Source: an uncultured Rivibacter sp.
Lineage (GTDB): Bacteria; Pseudomonadota; Gammaproteobacteria; Burkholderiales; Burkholderiaceae
NCBI GenBank assembly: GCA_946480925.1
Contig: CAMLLU010000145.1
Span: forward strand, 1-5,476
DNA: 5,476 bases
Reading direction: 5' to 3'
Each line of letters begins with the position of its first letter. Position 1 is the stretch's first letter. This document shows positions 1-5,476 of the stretch, in pieces. The notes beneath the pieces are model-generated. The model ran no database searches, was not told where the DNA came from, and was given only the letters and a program-made list of their open reading frames with translations. Position numbers and translations under genes: made by a program.

Positions 1-53
1 GCCCGACCCTCGCGGAGGGTCGCTCGCTGTACTCGGCGAGCGGGGTGTCGTCA
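1..53 (+). repeat. Structured 53-bp repeat, copy A (cut by window edge)
   Basis: Seen directly: this stretch matches the minus strand of 2751-2803 at 47 of 53 positions without gaps. It folds into two adjacent hairpins. The first pairs 4-11 with 15-22 (8 bp, 3-base loop). The second pairs 21-27 (cgctcgc) with 36-42 (gcgagcg) around an 8-base loop, tgtactcg; the two share bases 21-22. It starts 3 bases beyond the stop codon of the dehydrogenase gene, so it lies in the 3' untranslated part of the leftward operon or in the gap to the next gene. No T-tract follows either arm, so a classical intrinsic terminator is not supported. The element may extend beyond base 1, because copy B has further repeat-like sequence on that side. 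Inference: a REP/palindromic-type dispersed element. Confidence 0.8.
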
Positions 54-56
54 TCA

Positions 57-821
57 CTACCTGGGTGGCAGGCGCAGGGCGCCGTCCAGGCGAATCACTT
101 CGCCGTTCAACGATGCATTGGCCACGATGTGCGCGGCCAGTTGCGCAAACTCTTCAGGCTTGCCCAGGCGCTTGGGGAAGGGAATGCTCGACGCCAGCGA
201 CTGCTGCACTTCTTCGGGCAGCTTGTGGAGCAGCGGCGTGAGAAAGAGGCCCGGGGCGATGGTGCACACACGCACGCCGTGTTGTGCCAGGTCGCGTGCG
301 AGCGGCAGCGTCAGCGACACGAGGCCACCTTTCGAGGCGGCATAGGCTTCCTGGCCTACCTGGCCGTCGAAGGCGGCTACCGATGCGGTGTTGACGATCA
401 CGCCGCGTTCGCCGTCTTCGAGCGGCTCGTTCTTCGCCATCTCGGCCGCGGCCAGGCGGATCACGTTGAAGGTGCCCACGAGGTTCACGTCGATCACGCG
501 CTTGAAGTCTTCGAGCGGCATGGCCGTGCCGTCCTTGCCCACCACGCGCTTGGCGCCGCCGATGCCGGCCACGTTCATGAGTGCGCGCACGGGGCCGAAG
601 GCTTCGCGCGTGGCGGCAATGGCCTGCTCGATGCTTGCGCTGTCGGTGATGTCGCAGCGCAGGCCGAGGCCGCCGATCTCTTGCGCCACGGCCTGTGCGC
701 CTTCGGCGTTCACGTCGAGCACGGCCACCCTCGCGCCTTGGCGTGCCAGCTCGCGCGCGGTTTCAGCGCCGAGCCCGGAGCCGCCGCCGGTCACGATGAC
801 GGCCATGCCTTGGATGTTCAT
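57..821 (-). CDS. 3-hydroxyacyl-CoA dehydrogenase, HSD10-type short-chain dehydrogenase
   Basis: A 254-residue classical SDR, a normal length for the family. It has the Rossmann glycine motif TGGGSGLG (11-18) and an acidic residue ending strand 2 (D36), which indicates NAD rather than NADP. D57 follows in CDIT, NVAG is at 83-86, and N113 is present. The catalytic set is S147, Y160 and K164 in a YAASK motif. The stretch around NTASVAAFDG (144-153) and the later TIAPGLFLTPLL closely resemble human HSD17B10 and bacterial type II 3-hydroxyacyl-CoA dehydrogenases. Expected reaction: NAD-dependent oxidation of a 3-hydroxyacyl-CoA to the 3-ketoacyl-CoA in the cytoplasm. From context, the substrate would be the hydrated feruloyl- or coumaroyl-CoA. 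ATG at 821 is chosen because AGGA (832-835) lies 10 bases upstream. A GTG at 857 would add 12 residues with no family similarity and would sit inside a hairpin. It is the last gene of the operon in view. The family is sure; the aromatic substrate is inferred. Confidence 0.92.
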   Translation of the reverse strand: MNIQGMAVIVTGGGSGLGAETARELARQGARVAVLDVNAEGAQAVAQEIGGLGLRCDITDSASIEQAIAATREAFGPVRALMNVAGIGGAKRVVGKDGTAMPLEDFKRVIDVNLVGTFNVIRLAAAEMAKNEPLEDGERGVIVNTASVAAFDGQVGQEAYAASKGGLVSLTLPLARDLAQHGVRVCTIAPGLFLTPLLHKLPEEVQQSLASSIPFPKRLGKPEEFAQLAAHIVANASLNGEVIRLDGALRLPPR

Positions 822-831
822 GTTGCTGAGG

Positions 832-835
832 TCCT
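832..835 (-). promoter_or_regulatory. Ribosome binding site deciding the dehydrogenase start
   Basis: AGGA on the minus strand stands 10 bases ahead of the ATG at 821. It supports this start over the in-frame GTG at 857, which lies inside the right half of the hairpin at 852-875. Confidence 0.6.
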
Positions 836-851
836 GGTGTGGTTTTGAATG

Positions 852-875
852 CTTCACCGCGCCTCTGCGGTGAAG
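852..875 (-). promoter_or_regulatory. Intercistronic hairpin between fcs and the dehydrogenase
   Basis: The arms cttcaccgc (852-860) and gcggtgaag (867-875) are perfectly complementary over 9 bp around a 6-base loop. The structure begins 10 bases after the feruloyl-CoA synthase stop, within the 64-base gap, and ends about 17 bases before the AGGA of the dehydrogenase gene. Neither side is followed by a T-run, so it is not an obvious intrinsic terminator. Plausible roles (inference) are mRNA 3'-end stabilisation of the upstream message, a processing site, or partial attenuation that lowers expression of the last gene. Confidence 0.6.
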
Positions 876-885
876 GGTTCGTGTG

Positions 886-2856
886 TCATGTCTTTCTCGG
901 CAGGATCACGTACGGGTCGCTGCCCGCGCCCTCGTACAGCGCCTCCACCACCGAAGCCCGGTGCGTGAGCACCGCGCGCTGGTTGATGGAGCCCTTGTCG
1001 GTGACCTCGCCCTTGTCGATGGAAGGCGACTCGGCCAGCACGTGGGCGCGTGCCACGCGGTTGGCGCTGCCGGTGCCCGAATGCCAGAGCTGGTCGACCA
1101 GCTGCTGGAAGAACTCGCGCACCTGCGGGTGGTGCAGCACTTCAGGTGCCGGCGTGTGCGAAGGCAGGCCCGCGAGCCTGCGGCATTCGTCAACACGCGG
1201 GAACACGAGCATGCCGAGCTCGTTGCGGTTGATGCCGGTGATCACCGCGTCTTGCACGCAGGGGGCGCCCGCCGCAATGATCTTGGCGCGCAGCGGGCCC
1301 ACGCTCACGAAGGTGCCGGTGGCGAGCTTGAAGTCTTCTGCAATGCGGCCGTCGAACAGCAGGCCCTTCTGCGGGTCGGTCGCGTCCACGTACTTCACCG
1401 CGTCGCCGGTGCGGTAGTAGCCCTCTTCGTCGAAGGCTTCGGCGGTGAGCTCGGGTTGGCGCCAGTAGCCGGGCATCACGTTGGGGCCGCGAAAGCGCAC
1501 CTCCACCTTGCCGTCCACCGGCACGAGCTTCACGTCGACGCCGGGGCAGGGCAGGCCGATGTGGCCGGAGCGCACCTCGCTGGCCTTGAGCGCGAACATG
1601 CACGAGGGCGCGGTCTCCGTCATGCCCAGGCCGGTGATGACCGGGATGCGTGCGCCCACGGTGCGCTCGGCCAGGCGGTCGAGCTGGTCCCACACGGCTT
1701 GTGAAAGCCCGGCGCCGGCGAACATGAAGGCCTGCACTCGGCGGAACAGCGACTCGCGCAGCACGTCGTCGGTTTCCATGACGGCGGCGAGCTCTTCGAA
1801 GCCCTTGGGCACGTTGAAGTACACGGTGGGCGAGATCTCGCGCAGGTTGCGCAGCGTTTCGGCCATGCCGTTCGCCGTGGGCTTGCCTTCGTCGATGTAG
1901 AGCGTGCCGCCGTTGTAGAGCGTGATGCCCACGTTGTGGTTGCCGCCGAAGGTGTGGTTCCACGGCAGCCAGTCCACCAGCACCGGCGGCTCGTCGGCCA
2001 GGAAGGCCATGCTCTGGCGCAGCATCTGCTGGTTGGCGCACATCATGCGCTGCGTGTTGACCACGCCCTTGGGCGCCTTGGTGGAGCCCGAGGTGAACAG
2101 GAACTTCACGATGGTGTCGGGGCCCACCTTGGCGTGCGCCGCTTCGACTTCGCGGCCGGGCTGCGTGGCCAGCAGCCCGGCGAAGGGCGTGACGGCGCGG
2201 CCTTCGAGCGCGCCTTCGCCGCCGCCTTCACCCACTTCAGCGAGCACCACTTCCACGTCGCCTCCCACGGCGGCGGCAATGGCCTTGCCGTAGGCCGGCC
2301 CGCTGGCGAACACCAGCCCCGGCGTCACCGTGGCGACGATGTGCTTGAGCTTGCCGTAGTCCTGCGAGACCAGCGAATACGCGGGCGACACCGGCACGTA
2401 GGGCACGCCGGCCCACATGGCGCCGAGTGCGAGCGTGAGGTGCTCGAGGTCGTTGTCGGAAACGATGGCGATGGGCCGCTCCACCGAGAGCCCGCGCTGC
2501 ACCAGCGCCTGGCCCACGGCCTGCGCGCGCTGGAGCATCTGCGCGTAGCTGATGCGTTCCCACTCTCCACCGTTGCGCCGCTTGGCCGCGAAGGTGCGCC
2601 CGGGCGCTTCGGCGGCCCAGTGCTCCAGCCTGTCGGTCAGGCGTGCGGGGTAGGGGCCCAGCGGCTCGGTGGAGCGCAGCAGCTGCACGCCGCTGGCGCG
2701 TTCTTCCAGCGTGGCCTGCAGGCAGCCGCCCACGTGCGTGGGGCGGTATCTGACGGCACCCCGCTCGACGGGTACATCGAGCGACCCTCCGAGAGGGGCG
2801 GGCCTTGCTTGGGGCGGCCCGGCGCGGCGGCCCGTCTGACCTTCAGTGGCACTCAT
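886..2856 (-). CDS. fcs: Feruloyl-CoA synthase (ANL superfamily)
   Basis: A 656-residue cytoplasmic adenylate-forming ligase. It converts ferulate and related hydroxycinnamates, with ATP and CoA, to the CoA thioester, the entry step of hydroxycinnamate catabolism. Motifs: phosphate loop TSGSTKAPKG (255-264), DWLPWNHTFGG (295-305), GLGMTETAP (409-417, E414), YRTGD (481-485), then GRIAEDFKLATGTFVSVG (503-520), which is distinctive of the feruloyl-CoA synthase subgroup. The C-terminal lysine region DKGEVTDKGSINQRAVL (614-630) carries K615 and K621. A Gly/Glu-rich stretch at 207-219 looks like a loop insertion. The start at 2856 lies 5 bases after the hydratase stop, with AAGG about 11 bases upstream, suggesting translational coupling. 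The frame stays open upstream to 3390, but that part overlaps the hydratase and has no family similarity. Odd feature: residues 18-35 are encoded by repeat copy B, ahead of the family-like start around RYRPTHVGG (36-44). Without about 30 residues the length would match the usual 610-630. Confidence 0.95.
   Translation of the reverse strand: MSATEGQTGRRAGPPQARPAPLGGSLDVPVERGAVRYRPTHVGGCLQATLEERASGVQLLRSTEPLGPYPARLTDRLEHWAAEAPGRTFAAKRRNGGEWERISYAQMLQRAQAVGQALVQRGLSVERPIAIVSDNDLEHLTLALGAMWAGVPYVPVSPAYSLVSQDYGKLKHIVATVTPGLVFASGPAYGKAIAAAVGGDVEVVLAEVGEGGGEGALEGRAVTPFAGLLATQPGREVEAAHAKVGPDTIVKFLFTSGSTKAPKGVVNTQRMMCANQQMLRQSMAFLADEPPVLVDWLPWNHTFGGNHNVGITLYNGGTLYIDEGKPTANGMAETLRNLREISPTVYFNVPKGFEELAAVMETDDVLRESLFRRVQAFMFAGAGLSQAVWDQLDRLAERTVGARIPVITGLGMTETAPSCMFALKASEVRSGHIGLPCPGVDVKLVPVDGKVEVRFRGPNVMPGYWRQPELTAEAFDEEGYYRTGDAVKYVDATDPQKGLLFDGRIAEDFKLATGTFVSVGPLRAKIIAAGAPCVQDAVITGINRNELGMLVFPRVDECRRLAGLPSHTPAPEVLHHPQVREFFQQLVDQLWHSGTGSANRVARAHVLAESPSIDKGEVTDKGSINQRAVLTHRASVVEALYEGAGSDPYVILPRKT
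2751..2803 (-). repeat. Structured 53-bp repeat, copy B, inside the fcs 5' coding region
   Basis: Read on the minus strand, this matches 1-53 at 47 of 53 positions without gaps. The main hairpin pairs 2777-2783 with 2762-2768 (cgctcga with tcgagcg on the minus strand) around the loop tgtacccg. Relative to copy A, the pair at 2777/2768 is A-T instead of C-G, a compensatory double change. The other differences lie in loops (2), in the 3' flank (1) and at one position that breaks a pair of the small first hairpin. The element is read in frame as residues 18-35 of the feruloyl-CoA synthase. The preceding G/C-rich stretch 2804-2820 on the same strand, containing ccccaagcaag, may belong to a longer element. 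It resembles, from memory, an intergenic repeat abundant in Comamonadaceae; this was not checked. Confidence 0.8.
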
Positions 2857-2861
2857 GCTGA

Positions 2862-3668
2862 TCAACCCTTGCTGACCTTGCCCGCGCGCTTCTCCAGGAA
2901 GTCGCGCATGCGCTGCTTGGCGGCGTCGTCGCCCTGGGCGATGGCGGCCATGAGCGATTCGACGAAGAGCCCGTCGGGCTGCGAGAGGTCGGCAATGCGC
3001 GGCAGTGCCTGCATCACCGCGAAGTTGGAAAGTGGCGCGTTGCTGGCGATCTTGCGGGCCAGCTCCAGGCCCTTGGCGAGGCCTTCGCCTTCGGCCACGC
3101 GGTAGTGCGACAGGCCCACGGCCTGGCCTTCGTCGGCGTCGAGCACACGGCCGGTGAGCATCATGTCGGCCATGCGCGAGGCGCCGATGAGCCGCGGCAC
3201 GCGCGCCGAGCCGCCGCCGCCCACGAAGAGGCCGCGCTGGCCTTCGGGCAGGCCGTAGAAGGTGCTCGCCTCGGCCACGCGGATGTGGCAGGCGCTCGCG
3301 ATTTCGAGGCCGCCGCCTACCACGGCGCCGTGCATCACCGCCACTACCGGCACGCGGCCGAACTGCACCTGGTCGAGCGCGGCATGCCACATGCGCGAAT
3401 GCGCCACGCCTTCGAAGACGCTGCGCTCGCCCAGCTCCGACAGGTCGAGCCCGGCGCAGAAGTGTTCGCCTTCACCCGAGAGCACCACGGCGCGCACGGC
3501 CTCGGGCAGGTTGATGAAGCAGGTGTGCAGCTGGGTGACGAGCGTGTCGTTCACCGCGTTGCGCTTGACGGGGCGGTTGAGCCGCACGTGGGCGATGGCG
3601 CCGTCGAGTTCGATCTTCAGCAGGTCGAGCGAGGCGAGCAGGGCGGAAGGGGCAGTGGCGGAGGTCAT
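2862..3668 (-). CDS. Enoyl-CoA hydratase/isomerase family (crotonase), probable hydroxycinnamoyl-CoA hydratase
   Basis: A 268-residue crotonase-fold protein, full length for the family. The core begins near residue 16 with LLKIELDG, followed by VRLNRPVKRNAV (28-39). The oxyanion-hole segments are HFCAGLDLSE (69-78) and GAVVGGGLE (114-122). Glutamates E122 (GGGLE) and E142 (YGLPEG) are 20 residues apart, as in the Glu144/Glu164 pair of rat enoyl-CoA hydratase, so both catalytic acids are present. The vanillin-forming hydratase/lyase family, as I recall it, has Ser in place of the first Glu and a WTAGMDLKEYF-like segment; neither is seen here. Expected role: adding water to feruloyl-CoA or coumaroyl-CoA to give the 3-hydroxyacyl-CoA. 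It is the first gene of the leftward operon. No convincing Shine-Dalgarno precedes the ATG at 3668; only a distant GAAG is visible, so the start or a short leader is less certain than the family call. Confidence 0.9.
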   Translation of the reverse strand: MTSATAPSALLASLDLLKIELDGAIAHVRLNRPVKRNAVNDTLVTQLHTCFINLPEAVRAVVLSGEGEHFCAGLDLSELGERSVFEGVAHSRMWHAALDQVQFGRVPVVAVMHGAVVGGGLEIASACHIRVAEASTFYGLPEGQRGLFVGGGGSARVPRLIGASRMADMMLTGRVLDADEGQAVGLSHYRVAEGEGLAKGLELARKIASNAPLSNFAVMQALPRIADLSQPDGLFVESLMAAIAQGDDAAKQRMRDFLEKRAGKVSKG

Positions 3669-3695
3669 GAGAAAGGTCAGTGCTTCAATTGGTTA

Positions 3696-3724
3696 AGGAT
3701 GCTAAGCATTTTGGTGGGTGCCAA
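3696..3724 (-). promoter_or_regulatory. Weak sigma-70-like promoter candidate for the catabolic operon
   Basis: On the minus strand TTGGCA (3724-3719) matches the -35 consensus at 5 of 6 positions. After 17 bases comes CATCCT (3701-3696), which matches the -10 consensus at only 3 of 6. Transcription would start near 3689, about 20 bases before the hydratase ATG. The -35 touches the end of the 11-bp inverted repeat, which would suit control by a bound regulator. The weak -10 makes this tentative. Confidence 0.25.
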
Positions 3725-3746
3725 GATGCGGGTAAACCCGCATCTT
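3723..3746. promoter_or_regulatory. Perfect 11-bp inverted repeat, candidate operator
   Basis: The left arm aagatgcgggt (3723-3733) and right arm acccgcatctt (3736-3746) are exact reverse complements separated by only aa. A 2-base spacer is too short for a relaxed RNA loop, and the site lies between divergent genes, so a dimeric DNA-binding protein is the better explanation. It lies 54 bases from the hydratase start and 151 bases from the esterase start. Hydroxycinnamate operons are often controlled by MarR-type repressors that release DNA on binding a hydroxycinnamoyl-CoA, but nothing in the window identifies the regulator family. Confidence 0.6.
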
Positions 3747-3759
3747 CAATGTGGCTGCA

Positions 3760-3778
3760 GCCCGCGAAATACGCGGGC
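3760..3778. repeat. 7-bp inverted repeat in the divergent region
   Basis: The arms gcccgcg (3760-3766) and cgcgggc (3772-3778) pair perfectly around the loop aaata. It could be a second protein site or, if transcribed, a stable hairpin. No T-tract follows it on either strand, so there is no support for termination. Confidence 0.5.
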
Positions 3779-3791
3779 CGCACGGGCATTT

Positions 3792-3811
3792 GGCCAACCT
3801 AGGGTTAGCCC
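3792..3811. promoter_or_regulatory. Imperfect dyad with gggttagccc core, possible second operator
   Basis: The stretch ggccaacc (3792-3799), tag, ggttagcc (3803-3810) pairs at 7 of 8 positions. Its core gggttagccc (3802-3811) matches gggtaaaccc (3730-3739) of the perfect inverted repeat at 8 of 10 positions. The two centres are 72 bp apart, close to a whole number of helical turns. A shared regulator binding both sites is an inference. Confidence 0.35.
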
Positions 3812-3823
3812 TGAACATTGTGG

Positions 3824-3847
3824 TCTTTTTATTTAATTAACTTAAAC
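3824..3847 (+). promoter_or_regulatory. AT-rich block, probable promoter part for the esterase gene
   Basis: This is the most AT-rich stretch of the window and contains ttaattaa. TTTAAT at 3832-3837 matches the -10 consensus at 5 of 6 positions, but no good -35 stands 16-18 bases upstream, as expected for an activator-dependent promoter. Start-site placement is uncertain. Confidence 0.35.
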
Positions 3848-3850
3848 ATC

Positions 3851-3868
3851 TGGGTGCACAGACACCCA
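3851..3868 (+). promoter_or_regulatory. Small hairpin in the esterase 5' leader
   Basis: The arms tgggtg (3851-3856) and caccca (3863-3868) form 6 bp around a 6-base loop, about 30 bases before the esterase start. It could be an operator half-pair or a leader hairpin. It does not cover the ribosome binding site. Confidence 0.35.
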
Positions 3869-3885
3869 ATGCGAAGACCACCGAT

Positions 3886-3892
3886 GAGGAGA
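3886..3892 (+). promoter_or_regulatory. Strong ribosome binding site of the esterase gene
   Basis: GAGGAGA ends 5 bases before the ATG at 3898. It fixes the start, which is also supported by the signal peptide that begins there. Confidence 0.85.
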
Positions 3893-3897
3893 CCGAC

Positions 3898-5476
3898 ATG
3901 ACGATACGACGTACCGCGGGCCTCGGGTTCGCTCTGGCTGGGGCGCTGCTGGCCCAAGGTTGCGGCGGCGACGACGGCGATGACGCACCCGCCCCGGCGC
4001 CGAGCCCGGTTGCGCGGCTGGCCTGCAGCGAGATCACCGCCGCAGCGCTGGGCCGCAGCGACCTCGACATCACCCTCACGGAGTCCGTGGCGGCCGACAC
4101 GGTGACGCCCACGGGCGCCGCCCAGGCGCTGCCCGAGCATTGCCGCGTGCAGGGCAAGCTGGCCGAGCGCACCAGCACGGTCGACGGCAAGACCTATGCG
4201 ATCGGCTTCGAGCTGCGGCTGCCGCTGCTGTGGAACGGGCGCTTCTTCTTCCAGGGCGGCGGCGGCACCGACGGTGCCATCGTGCCGGCCTACGGCACGC
4301 TCTCGGGTGGCGGCGCCACCACCAACGCGCTGACGCAGGGCTTCGCCGTGGTGAGCACCGACGGCGGCCACACGGCCGAGGCCGCGCCCATCGTCGGCGG
4401 TTCGCTGTTCGGCATCGACCCGCAGGCCCGGGTGGACTACGGCTACAACGCCGTGGGCCAGGTCACCACGCTGGCCAAGGCCATCATCAACCGGCACTAC
4501 GGCGAAGCGCCCGAGCGCTCGTACTTCGTGGGCTGCTCCAACGGCGGCCGCCAGGCCATGGTGGCCGCTTCGCGCTTTGCGGGCGAGTTCGACGGCATCG
4601 TGGCCGGCAACCCGGGCTTCAACCTGCCCAAGGCGGCCGTGCAGCACGCGTGGGACAACCAGTCCTTCGCGCCCGCCGCGCCGGTGGCGGCCGACGGCCG
4701 GCCCATCATCAGCCAGGCCTTCAGCAACGCCGACATGACGCTGCTGGCCAACAAGGTGGTGCAAGCATGCGATGCGCTCGACGGCCTGGCCGACGGCATG
4801 ATCGACAACCCGCCGGCCTGCAAGACCGCGTTCGACGTGGCCACGCTCACCTGCCCCGGCACGAAAGACGCCACCTGCCTGAGCGCCGCGCAGGTGACGG
4901 CGCTGCAGAAGATCTTCGGCGGCCCGAAGAACAGCGCGGGCGAGCAGCTCTATTCGGACTGGCCTTACGACGCGGGCGTGGCGAGCTTCGGCTGGCGCAT
5001 CTGGAAGCTCGGCACCTCGGCCACCTCGGTGCCCAACTCGCTGATCGGCACGCTGGGCGGCGGCTCGCTGCCCTACGTGTTCACCACGCCGCCTTCCACG
5101 CCCGACGGCACGGGCACCACGGTGATCGACTACCTGCTGGGCTTCAACTTCGACACCGACGCCCCGAAGATCTTCGCCACCACGTCGACCTACACGACCT
5201 CGGCGATGGACTTCATGACGCCGCCCAACCCCACCAACCTCGCGACGCTGCGCGACCGTGGCAGCAAGATGATCGTCTTCCACGGCAACAGCGACGCGGT
5301 GTTCTCGGTGAACGACACCATCGCGTGGTACGAGGGCCTGCGCAGTGCCAACAGCGGTGACGCGAGCGGCTTCGCGCGGCTGTTCACCGTGCCCGGCATG
5401 GGCCACTGCGCGGGCGGCCCGGCCACCGACAAGTTCGACACGCTCACCGCCATCGTGAACTGGGTGGAAAACGGCG
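3898..5476 (+). CDS. Tannase/feruloyl esterase family protein, probable lipoprotein (3' end outside window)
   Basis: The frame is open for 526 codons from the ATG to the right edge. The N-terminus is a short export signal: R4-R5, a hydrophobic run at about 7-19, then AQGC with C22 as probable lipidation site. Gln at -2 makes it an imperfect lipobox; an Asp/Gly- and Ala/Pro-rich linker follows (23-38). The mature part is an alpha/beta hydrolase of the tannase family: G-C-S-N-G-G-R around nucleophile S214 with C213, D466 in HGNSDAVF, and H503-C504 in GMGHC. This is the CS-D-HC signature, in which the two cysteines form a disulfide beside the triad. A calcium-site-like segment begins at C291 (CDALDGLADG) in the lid domain. 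The visible end, NWVENG, is typical of a point perhaps 50 residues before the family C-terminus. Expected role: cleaving hydroxycinnamate or gallate esters outside the cytoplasm. MHETase belongs to the same family, so the substrate is not proven; the divergent feruloyl-CoA operon favours feruloyl esters. Confidence 0.92.
   Translation, partial: MTIRRTAGLGFALAGALLAQGCGGDDGDDAPAPAPSPVARLACSEITAAALGRSDLDITLTESVAADTVTPTGAAQALPEHCRVQGKLAERTSTVDGKTYAIGFELRLPLLWNGRFFFQGGGGTDGAIVPAYGTLSGGGATTNALTQGFAVVSTDGGHTAEAAPIVGGSLFGIDPQARVDYGYNAVGQVTTLAKAIINRHYGEAPERSYFVGCSNGGRQAMVAASRFAGEFDGIVAGNPGFNLPKAAVQHAWDNQSFAPAAPVAADGRPIISQAFSNADMTLLANKVVQACDALDGLADGMIDNPPACKTAFDVATLTCPGTKDATCLSAAQVTALQKIFGGPKNSAGEQLYSDWPYDAGVASFGWRIWKLGTSATSVPNSLIGTLGGGSLPYVFTTPPSTPDGTGTTVIDYLLGFNFDTDAPKIFATTSTYTTSAMDFMTPPNPTNLATLRDRGSKMIVFHGNSDAVFSVNDTIAWYEGLRSANSGDASGFARLFTVPGMGHCAGGPATDKFDTLTAIVNWVENG

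Follow-up and report, generated by a model that had tools for sequence, protein, structure and literature searches.

Two copies of a three-hairpin palindromic element in a stretch of DNA from an uncultured Rivibacter sp., and the Burkholderiales family to which they belong

Rickettsia provides the best-known case of palindromic DNA within protein genes, and repetitive extragenic palindromes (REPs) provide a shorter form of it. The Rickettsia palindromic elements are coding palindromes that lie in frame in unrelated conserved genes (PMC10969869, PMC6649704). REPs of the GTAG/CGTC kind are single hairpins of 20–40 bp that bear a terminal tag and mostly form head-to-head dimers. They are located near stop codons, with some inside genes, including DNA-repair genes, and are sometimes clustered or in tandem (PMC3733652). 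A related system is that of the REP-associated tyrosine transposases (RAYTs), the genes of which are flanked by their own REPs (PMC2817692). The present report concerns a dispersed palindromic element of the order Burkholderiales, two copies of which (A and B) occur in a 5,476-nucleotide stretch of DNA from an uncultured Rivibacter sp. (contig CAMLLU010000145.1, positions 1 to 5,476), referred to below as the window. A literature search within an open-licence subset of texts found no description of this element family. The main text of PMC3733652 treats the betaproteobacterium Thauera and makes no mention of Acidovorax, Burkholderia, Methylibium, Comamonas, Leptothrix or Polaromonas.

The window is likely to contain two oppositely oriented copies of a non-autonomous, probably selfish palindromic element that is the Burkholderiales counterpart of the Rickettsia palindromic elements. 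Like these, it is a short, protein-less, dispersed palindrome that occurs in frame in unrelated conserved proteins and is missing from their homologues. It differs from them in its three hairpins, its fixed 17-nt loop, its direct tandem arrays, its many copies at gene edges and its occurrence in another bacterial order. Moreover, Rickettsia elements are said to lose repeat identity over time (PMC6649704), whereas pairing in the Burkholderiales element is mostly kept. The likeness is one of description and behaviour. With the GTAG/CGTC REPs the element shares high copy number, palindromic form, positions near stop codons, some intragenic copies, DNA-repair genes included, and an occasional clustered or tandem arrangement (PMC3733652). 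However, at 77–90 bp it is two to four times the 20–40 bp length of REPs (PMC3733652), and it has three hairpins, no clear tag and no inverted neighbours among the copies seen; copy B is intragenic, so the element is not purely extragenic. The family works like a Rickettsia palindromic element and does not pass as a tagged or RAYT-associated REP.

The inverted repeat and the architecture of the element

The longest inverted repeat of the window spans 53 nt at 89% identity, compared with 34 nt at 71% for the runner-up, and is far beyond chance. Bases 1–53 of the forward strand and 2751–2803 of the reverse strand align without gaps and are identical at 47 of 53 positions, with mismatches at positions 6, 12, 27, 33, 36 and 48. 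Mismatches 27 and 36 are the two sides of one stem pair of hairpin 3, which is C-G in copy A and A-T in copy B. Mismatch 6 falls within the stem of hairpin 2, where copy A has A-T and copy B has C.T, so that the pair is broken in B. An original prediction, made from the letters of the window, had described the repeat pair and its covarying hairpin, and both were borne out. It placed five of the six differences and overlooked the one in the hairpin-2 stem. Its 53-bp extent was real but incomplete, since copy B has 30 further bases on its 5′ side (2804–2833).

These 53 bp are the 3′ two-thirds of a protein-less, three-hairpin palindromic element of about 80 bp (~80–90 bp). The additional ~30 bp on the 5′ side are common to the aligned copies of Methylibium rhizosphaerae (genome G001, locus L001; genomes and loci are numbered G and L throughout), the nearest relative found with the ligase, which is 89% identical over residues 34–655. 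The parts follow in the order hairpin 1, whose 17-nt loop (CGCCGGGCCGCCCCAAG) is conserved, hairpin 2, hairpin 3, whose loop surrounds GTAC, and a 3′ end rich in G, beyond which there is a short spacer, often followed by CAT. Unit length across copies is 77–90 bp. The GGGGTG (or GGGGAG) end resembles a Shine-Dalgarno sequence. The features of the window that concern the element and its two neighbouring genes are as follows.

1..53, forward strand: copy A, cut by the window edge at base 1, with hairpin 2, hairpin 3 and the 3′ end GGGGTG-TCG-TCA (repeat search, alignment)
5..21, forward strand: hairpin 2 of copy A (alignment)
22..41, forward strand: hairpin 3 of copy A, its loop with GTAC, holding the covarying pair 27/36 (alignment, covariation)
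57..59, reverse strand: stop codon TAG of the short-chain dehydrogenase (SDR) gene, 11 nt past the G-run of copy A (open reading frame (ORF) reading)
57..818, reverse strand: SDR gene, PF00106/PF13561 (Pfam)
886..2856, reverse strand: AMP-binding CoA-ligase gene (Pfam, ORF, homologues), feruloyl-CoA-synthase-like by our own reading
2749..2754, reverse strand: GTCAGA, right copy of a possible 6-bp target-site duplication (sequence)
2755..2834, reverse strand: copy B, nearly complete, 80 bp between two GTCAGA words (alignment)
2757..2762, reverse strand: G-rich 3′ end of copy B, GGGGTG (alignment)
2763..2782, reverse strand: hairpin 3 of copy B (alignment, covariation)
2783..2799, reverse strand: hairpin 2 of copy B (alignment, covariation)
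2800..2833, reverse strand: hairpin 1 of copy B, with a GGGCC/GGCCC stem (alignment, covariation)
2808..2824, reverse strand: conserved 17-nt loop, the family signature (loop scans)
2835..2840, reverse strand: GTCAGA, left copy of the possible target-site duplication (sequence)

Paired changes and distribution of the family

Two types of the element are found, for which names were coined in the present analysis: the Methylibium type, to which the window copies belong, and a second type with CCCCCTCGGGGGGCAGCG around hairpin 2. Stem sequences vary among copies, yet their pairing is for the most part retained. An alignment of 37 Methylibium-type copies included both window copies; four copies in which no G-run end could be recognised and three that were long or truncated had been set aside. 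Over its 24 pairs, 93.6% of cells were paired, compared with 82.2% after shuffling. Fourteen pairs had changed on both sides, and covariation was 0.289 versus 0.100 in shuffled alignments, with 0 of 500 shuffles reaching the observed value, although such shuffles leave relatedness among copies in place. Sliding the partner by 1–3 columns gave covariation of 0.022–0.068. The covariation predicted from two copies persists over all 37: the pair in question (columns 59–68) is C-G in 25, G-C in 4, A-U in 3 and unpaired in 5.

For hairpin 1, 206 collected copies yielded 127 distinct 33-mers, in which 69.1% of eight positions were paired versus 40.2% when shuffled (maximum 44.4); by position, 123, 84, 85, 91, 91, 80, 92 and 56 of the 127 were paired. 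Removal of 35 internal-loop copies, picked by the letters of the 5′ arm, left 92, with 81.4% paired versus 43.7% shuffled (maximum 49.3). Swaps between G-C and C-G are common in hairpin 1, with counts of 69 and 47 at pair 1, and 14 G.T and 14 A.C occur among 644 cells. The helices of Methylibium-type copies have 11 G.T versus 5 A.C, and for that reason a strand (RNA) preference is possible there. The arms of hairpin 1 vary between copies within some genomes while hairpins 2 and 3 stay alike (0.33 vs. 0.73 in G353; 0.46 vs. 0.75 in G719), a contrast that does not appear in G043 (0.73 vs. 0.71) or G001 (1.00 vs. 0.90). By eye, tandem G.A/A.G mismatches recur mid-stem in hairpin 1 of L287, L290 and L291 (TGAGCGC/GCGCGA type).

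Some Burkholderiales genomes hold tens of copies. A BLAST search of M. rhizosphaerae with bases 1–70 returned 52 matches at E ≤ 10. Of these, 34 had E < 1e-3, and many stood in tandem at a spacing of 86–90 bp. A hairpin-1 search allowing ≤3 mismatches found 37 copies in the same genome and positives in 8 of 60 genomes, G001 included, with 0 in the reversed control. Forty of 100 genomes, again including G001, matched the 86-nt unit at E ≤ 1e-3; copy counts from that search are lower bounds, as about nine candidates were scored per genome. Of 300 genomes drawn from the order Burkholderiales, 16 contained the exact 19-mer core GCGCCGGGCCGCCCCAAGC, with up to 57 copies per genome, and of 398 genomes drawn from the phylum, 16 contained the 17-mer loop, with 262 matches versus 5 in the reversed control (G001 included in both). 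Loop counts were 82 in G043, 42 in G109, 37 in G353 and 35 in G001. Plasmids seldom carry the element: seven plasmid records matched a second-type query; a copy B query matched no plasmid record, and the second-type query matched no phage. At the Rfam gathering score, no match fell within the element in the window or in 16 loci, and there was one unrelated SAM_alpha match. The copies in multiple genomes and their covariation support what had been predicted in general terms, namely, a dispersed, structured, mobile-looking palindromic element with further paired changes.

Copies inside genes and at gene edges

The present frame of the ligase gene passes through copy B at the N-terminus, because every in-frame start ahead of the conserved region (TTG 2865, ATG 2856 and a distant GTG 3390) lies upstream of copy B; the next in-frame start, GTG 2733, sits within the conserved VGGC. 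The GTCAGA words that flank copy B are 86 bp apart. If these 86 bp (the element and one GTCAGA) are removed in silico, GTG 2852 gains an open frame that is in frame with the protein, and the rejoined start, VPLKVRYRPTHVGGC, resembles MAAPKYRGSRVGGC of M. rhizosphaerae. With copy B in place, the frame of GTG 2852 meets a stop. Copy B would thus have inserted near the start of the ligase gene, and, since GTG 2852 comes into frame once the 86 bp are removed, the insertion probably shifted the start to the overlapping ATG 2856 and so gave the protein extra N-terminal residues encoded by the element (AGPPQARPAPLGGSLDVPVERGA).

M. rhizosphaerae has neither insertion: its ligase begins MNAMAAPKYRGSRVGGC, and the sequence behind its SDR gene is unrelated. 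Of 80 ligase matches, 52 start within residues 34–42; the start falls before that stretch in 27, some of them near residue 5, and after it in one. When the 80 ligase loci were scanned for the loop, only four contained copies (L022, L027, L031 and L054), and of these only L031, a metagenome-assembled genome of Aquabacterium, has a copy beside the ligase start. Copy A of the window ends beside the SDR gene, just after its stop codon, behind which there are two further in-frame TGA triplets on the reverse strand (54–56 and 51–53).

By strict codon criteria on both flanks, six array sites are read in frame, with window copy B among them, and a looser list is longer. Some copies add about 28 amino acids mid-protein. 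In all four proteins that were compared with solved structures, the extra residues coincide with the element: RecG (L207, in which query residues 495–522 are inserted between residues 413 and 414 of 9wm0), Mfd (L263), NarG (L169) and the alpha subunit of methylcrotonyl-CoA carboxylase (L212). An AMP-binding ligase (L118) and a CoA-transferase (L124) hold single copies in frame. A pump of the resistance-nodulation-division type (L287) has six tandem copies in frame, amounting to about 168 residues, compared with up to 82 residues encoded by intragenic REP clusters (PMC3733652). In-frame copies use several reading frames. The recG site is filled in three genomes (G719, G263 and G004) and empty in 13 of the 16 loci listed, with the filled loci longer by 84, 84 and 72 bp. 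The arms of the recG copies in G719 and G263 differ from each other yet pair. The same RecG loop holds other, unrelated extra sequence in other genomes (L326, L329, L315), so the site looks tolerant. Genes at L219, L294 and L295 seem to contain at least two successive, partly decayed in-frame copies.

Positions relative to genes were scored at 129 array ends, comprising 32 of the Methylibium type (window copy B in, copy A out) and 97 of the second type. For the Methylibium type, 14 of 32 ends have a sense start codon −3 to +12 nt from the end of the G-run and 6 have a stop codon of the opposite strand at −2 to +20; for the second type, the counts are 9 and 42 of 97. A reading frame stays open across the element at 8 of the 32 and 25 of the 97 ends. 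In a list of 20 Methylibium-type ends, two of them from the window and at least two (L086, L090) not genuine array ends, nine have a start codon and a long frame exactly five bases past GGGGTG or GGGGAG (seven in G001, one each in G006 and G035). Neighbour families were drawn from 61 of 176 picked ORF pieces, all from the 75 right-hand ones. They are diverse, with 52 families in the 61 protein pieces, and include MetW, FHIPEP (FlhA), FliM, FlhD, ribosome recycling factor and ABC transporters, most occurring once. No transposase is present among the top 25 of these 52 families.

Several smaller observations concern gene edges. Seven tandem copies stand directly ahead of a metW-like start in M. 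rhizosphaerae (G001:C13:120016-120623, L230), and in G054 (L246) and G709 (L279) copies likewise precede starts that resemble metW by eye. A borderline match to the SAM_alpha riboswitch lies nearby but outside the element (L104, 2829–2904; 36.2 bits, cut-off 36). In some copies (L286, L268, L211, L208 and L031), the loop is immediately preceded by ATGAGC or ATGACC, from which a short upstream frame starts (e.g., MSAAPGRPKQ...), and these frames end on, or run into, the start codon of the following gene.

Proposed mobility and alternative explanations

Neighbouring copies within 300 bp of each other share the same orientation in 53 cases and are opposite in 0. Tandem spacings of 77–90 bp number 48, and 31 are multiples of three. 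Such direct tandem arrays suggest that copies were amplified through unequal recombination or through re-insertion. Together with dispersion and empty sites, the arrays point to mobility, as judged from sequence comparison. The element may be moved in trans by an enzyme that recognises a folded single strand, and a copy would survive if it ends at the boundary of a gene or leaves the reading frame open. One candidate feature of such movement was dropped as a general rule: the 5′ arm recurs on the right flank in L210, L216, L211 and L226, as if stem arms were derived from the target, but the 129 arrays were not above permuted pairs.

A number of points weigh against a mobile element of this kind. 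No transposition event was seen and no mobilising gene was found in the material analysed. Target-site duplications, as looked for in a miniature inverted-repeat transposable element (MITE) derived from an insertion sequence, show no excess over 129 array flanks (mean longest common word 4.11 vs. 3.97 permuted, inside the permuted range), and therefore the GTCAGA pair of copy B may be due to chance. The elements have 5.17 open frames of 6, scarcely more than the 5.01 of shuffled elements, and these counts give no sign of selection for coding. The recG element of G004 is shortened and has partly lost its stem pairing. Some copies are common to related genomes (recG in three, CoA-transferase in two), and therefore part of the family is old. 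Furthermore, copy counts come from genomes other than that of the window, and gene-edge counts depend on a rough codon score trained on four window genes.

The original prediction went on to assign the element to REPs or bacterial interspersed mosaic elements (BIMEs) mobilised by a REP-associated (RAYT-type) tyrosine transposase, and in this respect it did not hold up. As in the RAYT/REP system, palindromes have been amplified in the genome with complementary changes (PMC2817692), and REPs can likewise be intragenic, abut stop codons and repeat in tandem (PMC3733652). In addition, matches to Y1_Tnp were found in 18 of 20 genomes searched, and also in G001. Unlike that system, however, no repeat-flanked transposase gene was found: none of 28 Y1_Tnp genes (19 genomes; L111, L142–L168) had a recognisable copy within 1.5 kb, defined as a hairpin-1 core with ≤3 mismatches or a second-type hairpin 2 with ≤2. 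The element is also present in G047 and G054, two genomes in which no Y1_Tnp match reached E ≤ 1e-3. The joint presence or absence of element and Y1_Tnp is uninformative, as two of five "element-free" genomes (G002 and G005) proved to have related copies. Neighbouring copies do not alternate in orientation, and terminal tags are not clearly enriched. Across the 129 ends, GTAG was found 1 time at the 5′ end and 7 times, reverse-complemented, at the 3′ end (shuffled 4.2 and 9.7), and CGTC 9 and 6 times (shuffled 8.1 and 3.5). CGTC, TGTC and CCTC together were found 18 and 14 times (shuffled 17.8 and 9.6), a small excess at one end that carries no significance figure. A REP/BIME identity is unlikely on these grounds. 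A similarly low probability attaches to a cis-acting RNA, in which a portable ribosome-binding site and mRNA structure would control or stabilise many transcripts and be kept by selection. Start codons five nt behind GGGGTG or GGGGAG in nine of the 20 listed ends agree with this, as do metW- and flhA-like genes among such starts (by eye; PF07021 and PF00771 are among the neighbours), the strong pairing, the conserved loop and the excess of G.T over A.C in Methylibium-type helices. On the other hand, copies are also found behind opposite-strand genes and inside coding sequence, hairpin 1 has no strand preference in its mismatches, Rfam gave no match in the element and neighbouring families are diverse. 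Finally, a shared coding segment or a chance duplication local to the operon might have been thought of, given that copy B lies in an open frame and that A and B are 2.7 kb apart. It is refuted by tens of copies elsewhere in M. rhizosphaerae, whose ligase lacks the segment, and by the location of copy A outside a gene. Ordinary conserved coding sequence, which the original prediction had named as the finding that would overturn it, does not describe copy B, as M. rhizosphaerae is without the stretch and copies occur in only 4 of 80 ligase loci.

Within the preferred explanation, a non-autonomous palindromic element akin to those of Rickettsia, it is conceivable, though we hold it only tentatively, that the stem arms are rewritten by DNA templating. 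A single strand folded during replication would have one arm copied from the other (quasipalindrome correction), and covariation would arise from mutation rather than from selection on RNA. Pointers in this direction are the divergence of arms in G353 and G719, the G-C/C-G swaps and equal G.T and A.C counts of hairpin 1, and the differing, yet paired, recG arms of G719 and G263. The recG arms of G004, which no longer pair fully, speak against it. If DNA templating does take place, the element would be a tolerated peptide insert in essential enzymes and a carrier of a ready-made ribosome-binding site to gene starts, and covariation alone would be no proof of RNA function. The Burkholderiales family, with its insertions in RecG, Mfd, NarG and the carboxylase and its 17-nt signature, would offer more tractable hosts for the study of movement, protein tolerance and covariation without selection. 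It would also explain the odd peptides AGPPQ..., PGRPK... and ALGRPG... that are expected in predicted proteins of these bacteria.

The remaining features of the window are unrelated to the element or lie between its genes. A palindrome, AAGATGCGGG-TAAA-CCCGCATCTT, at 3723–3746 between the hydratase and tannase genes bears no relation to the element and may be a terminator or operator. A short inverted repeat, CTTCACCGC-GCCTCT-GCGGTGAAG, is located at 852–876 between the ligase and SDR genes. According to Pfam, the genes of window positions 57–5476 encode an SDR, the CoA ligase, an enoyl-CoA hydratase and a tannase/feruloyl esterase, and the set looks like a cluster for aromatic (ferulate-type) degradation.

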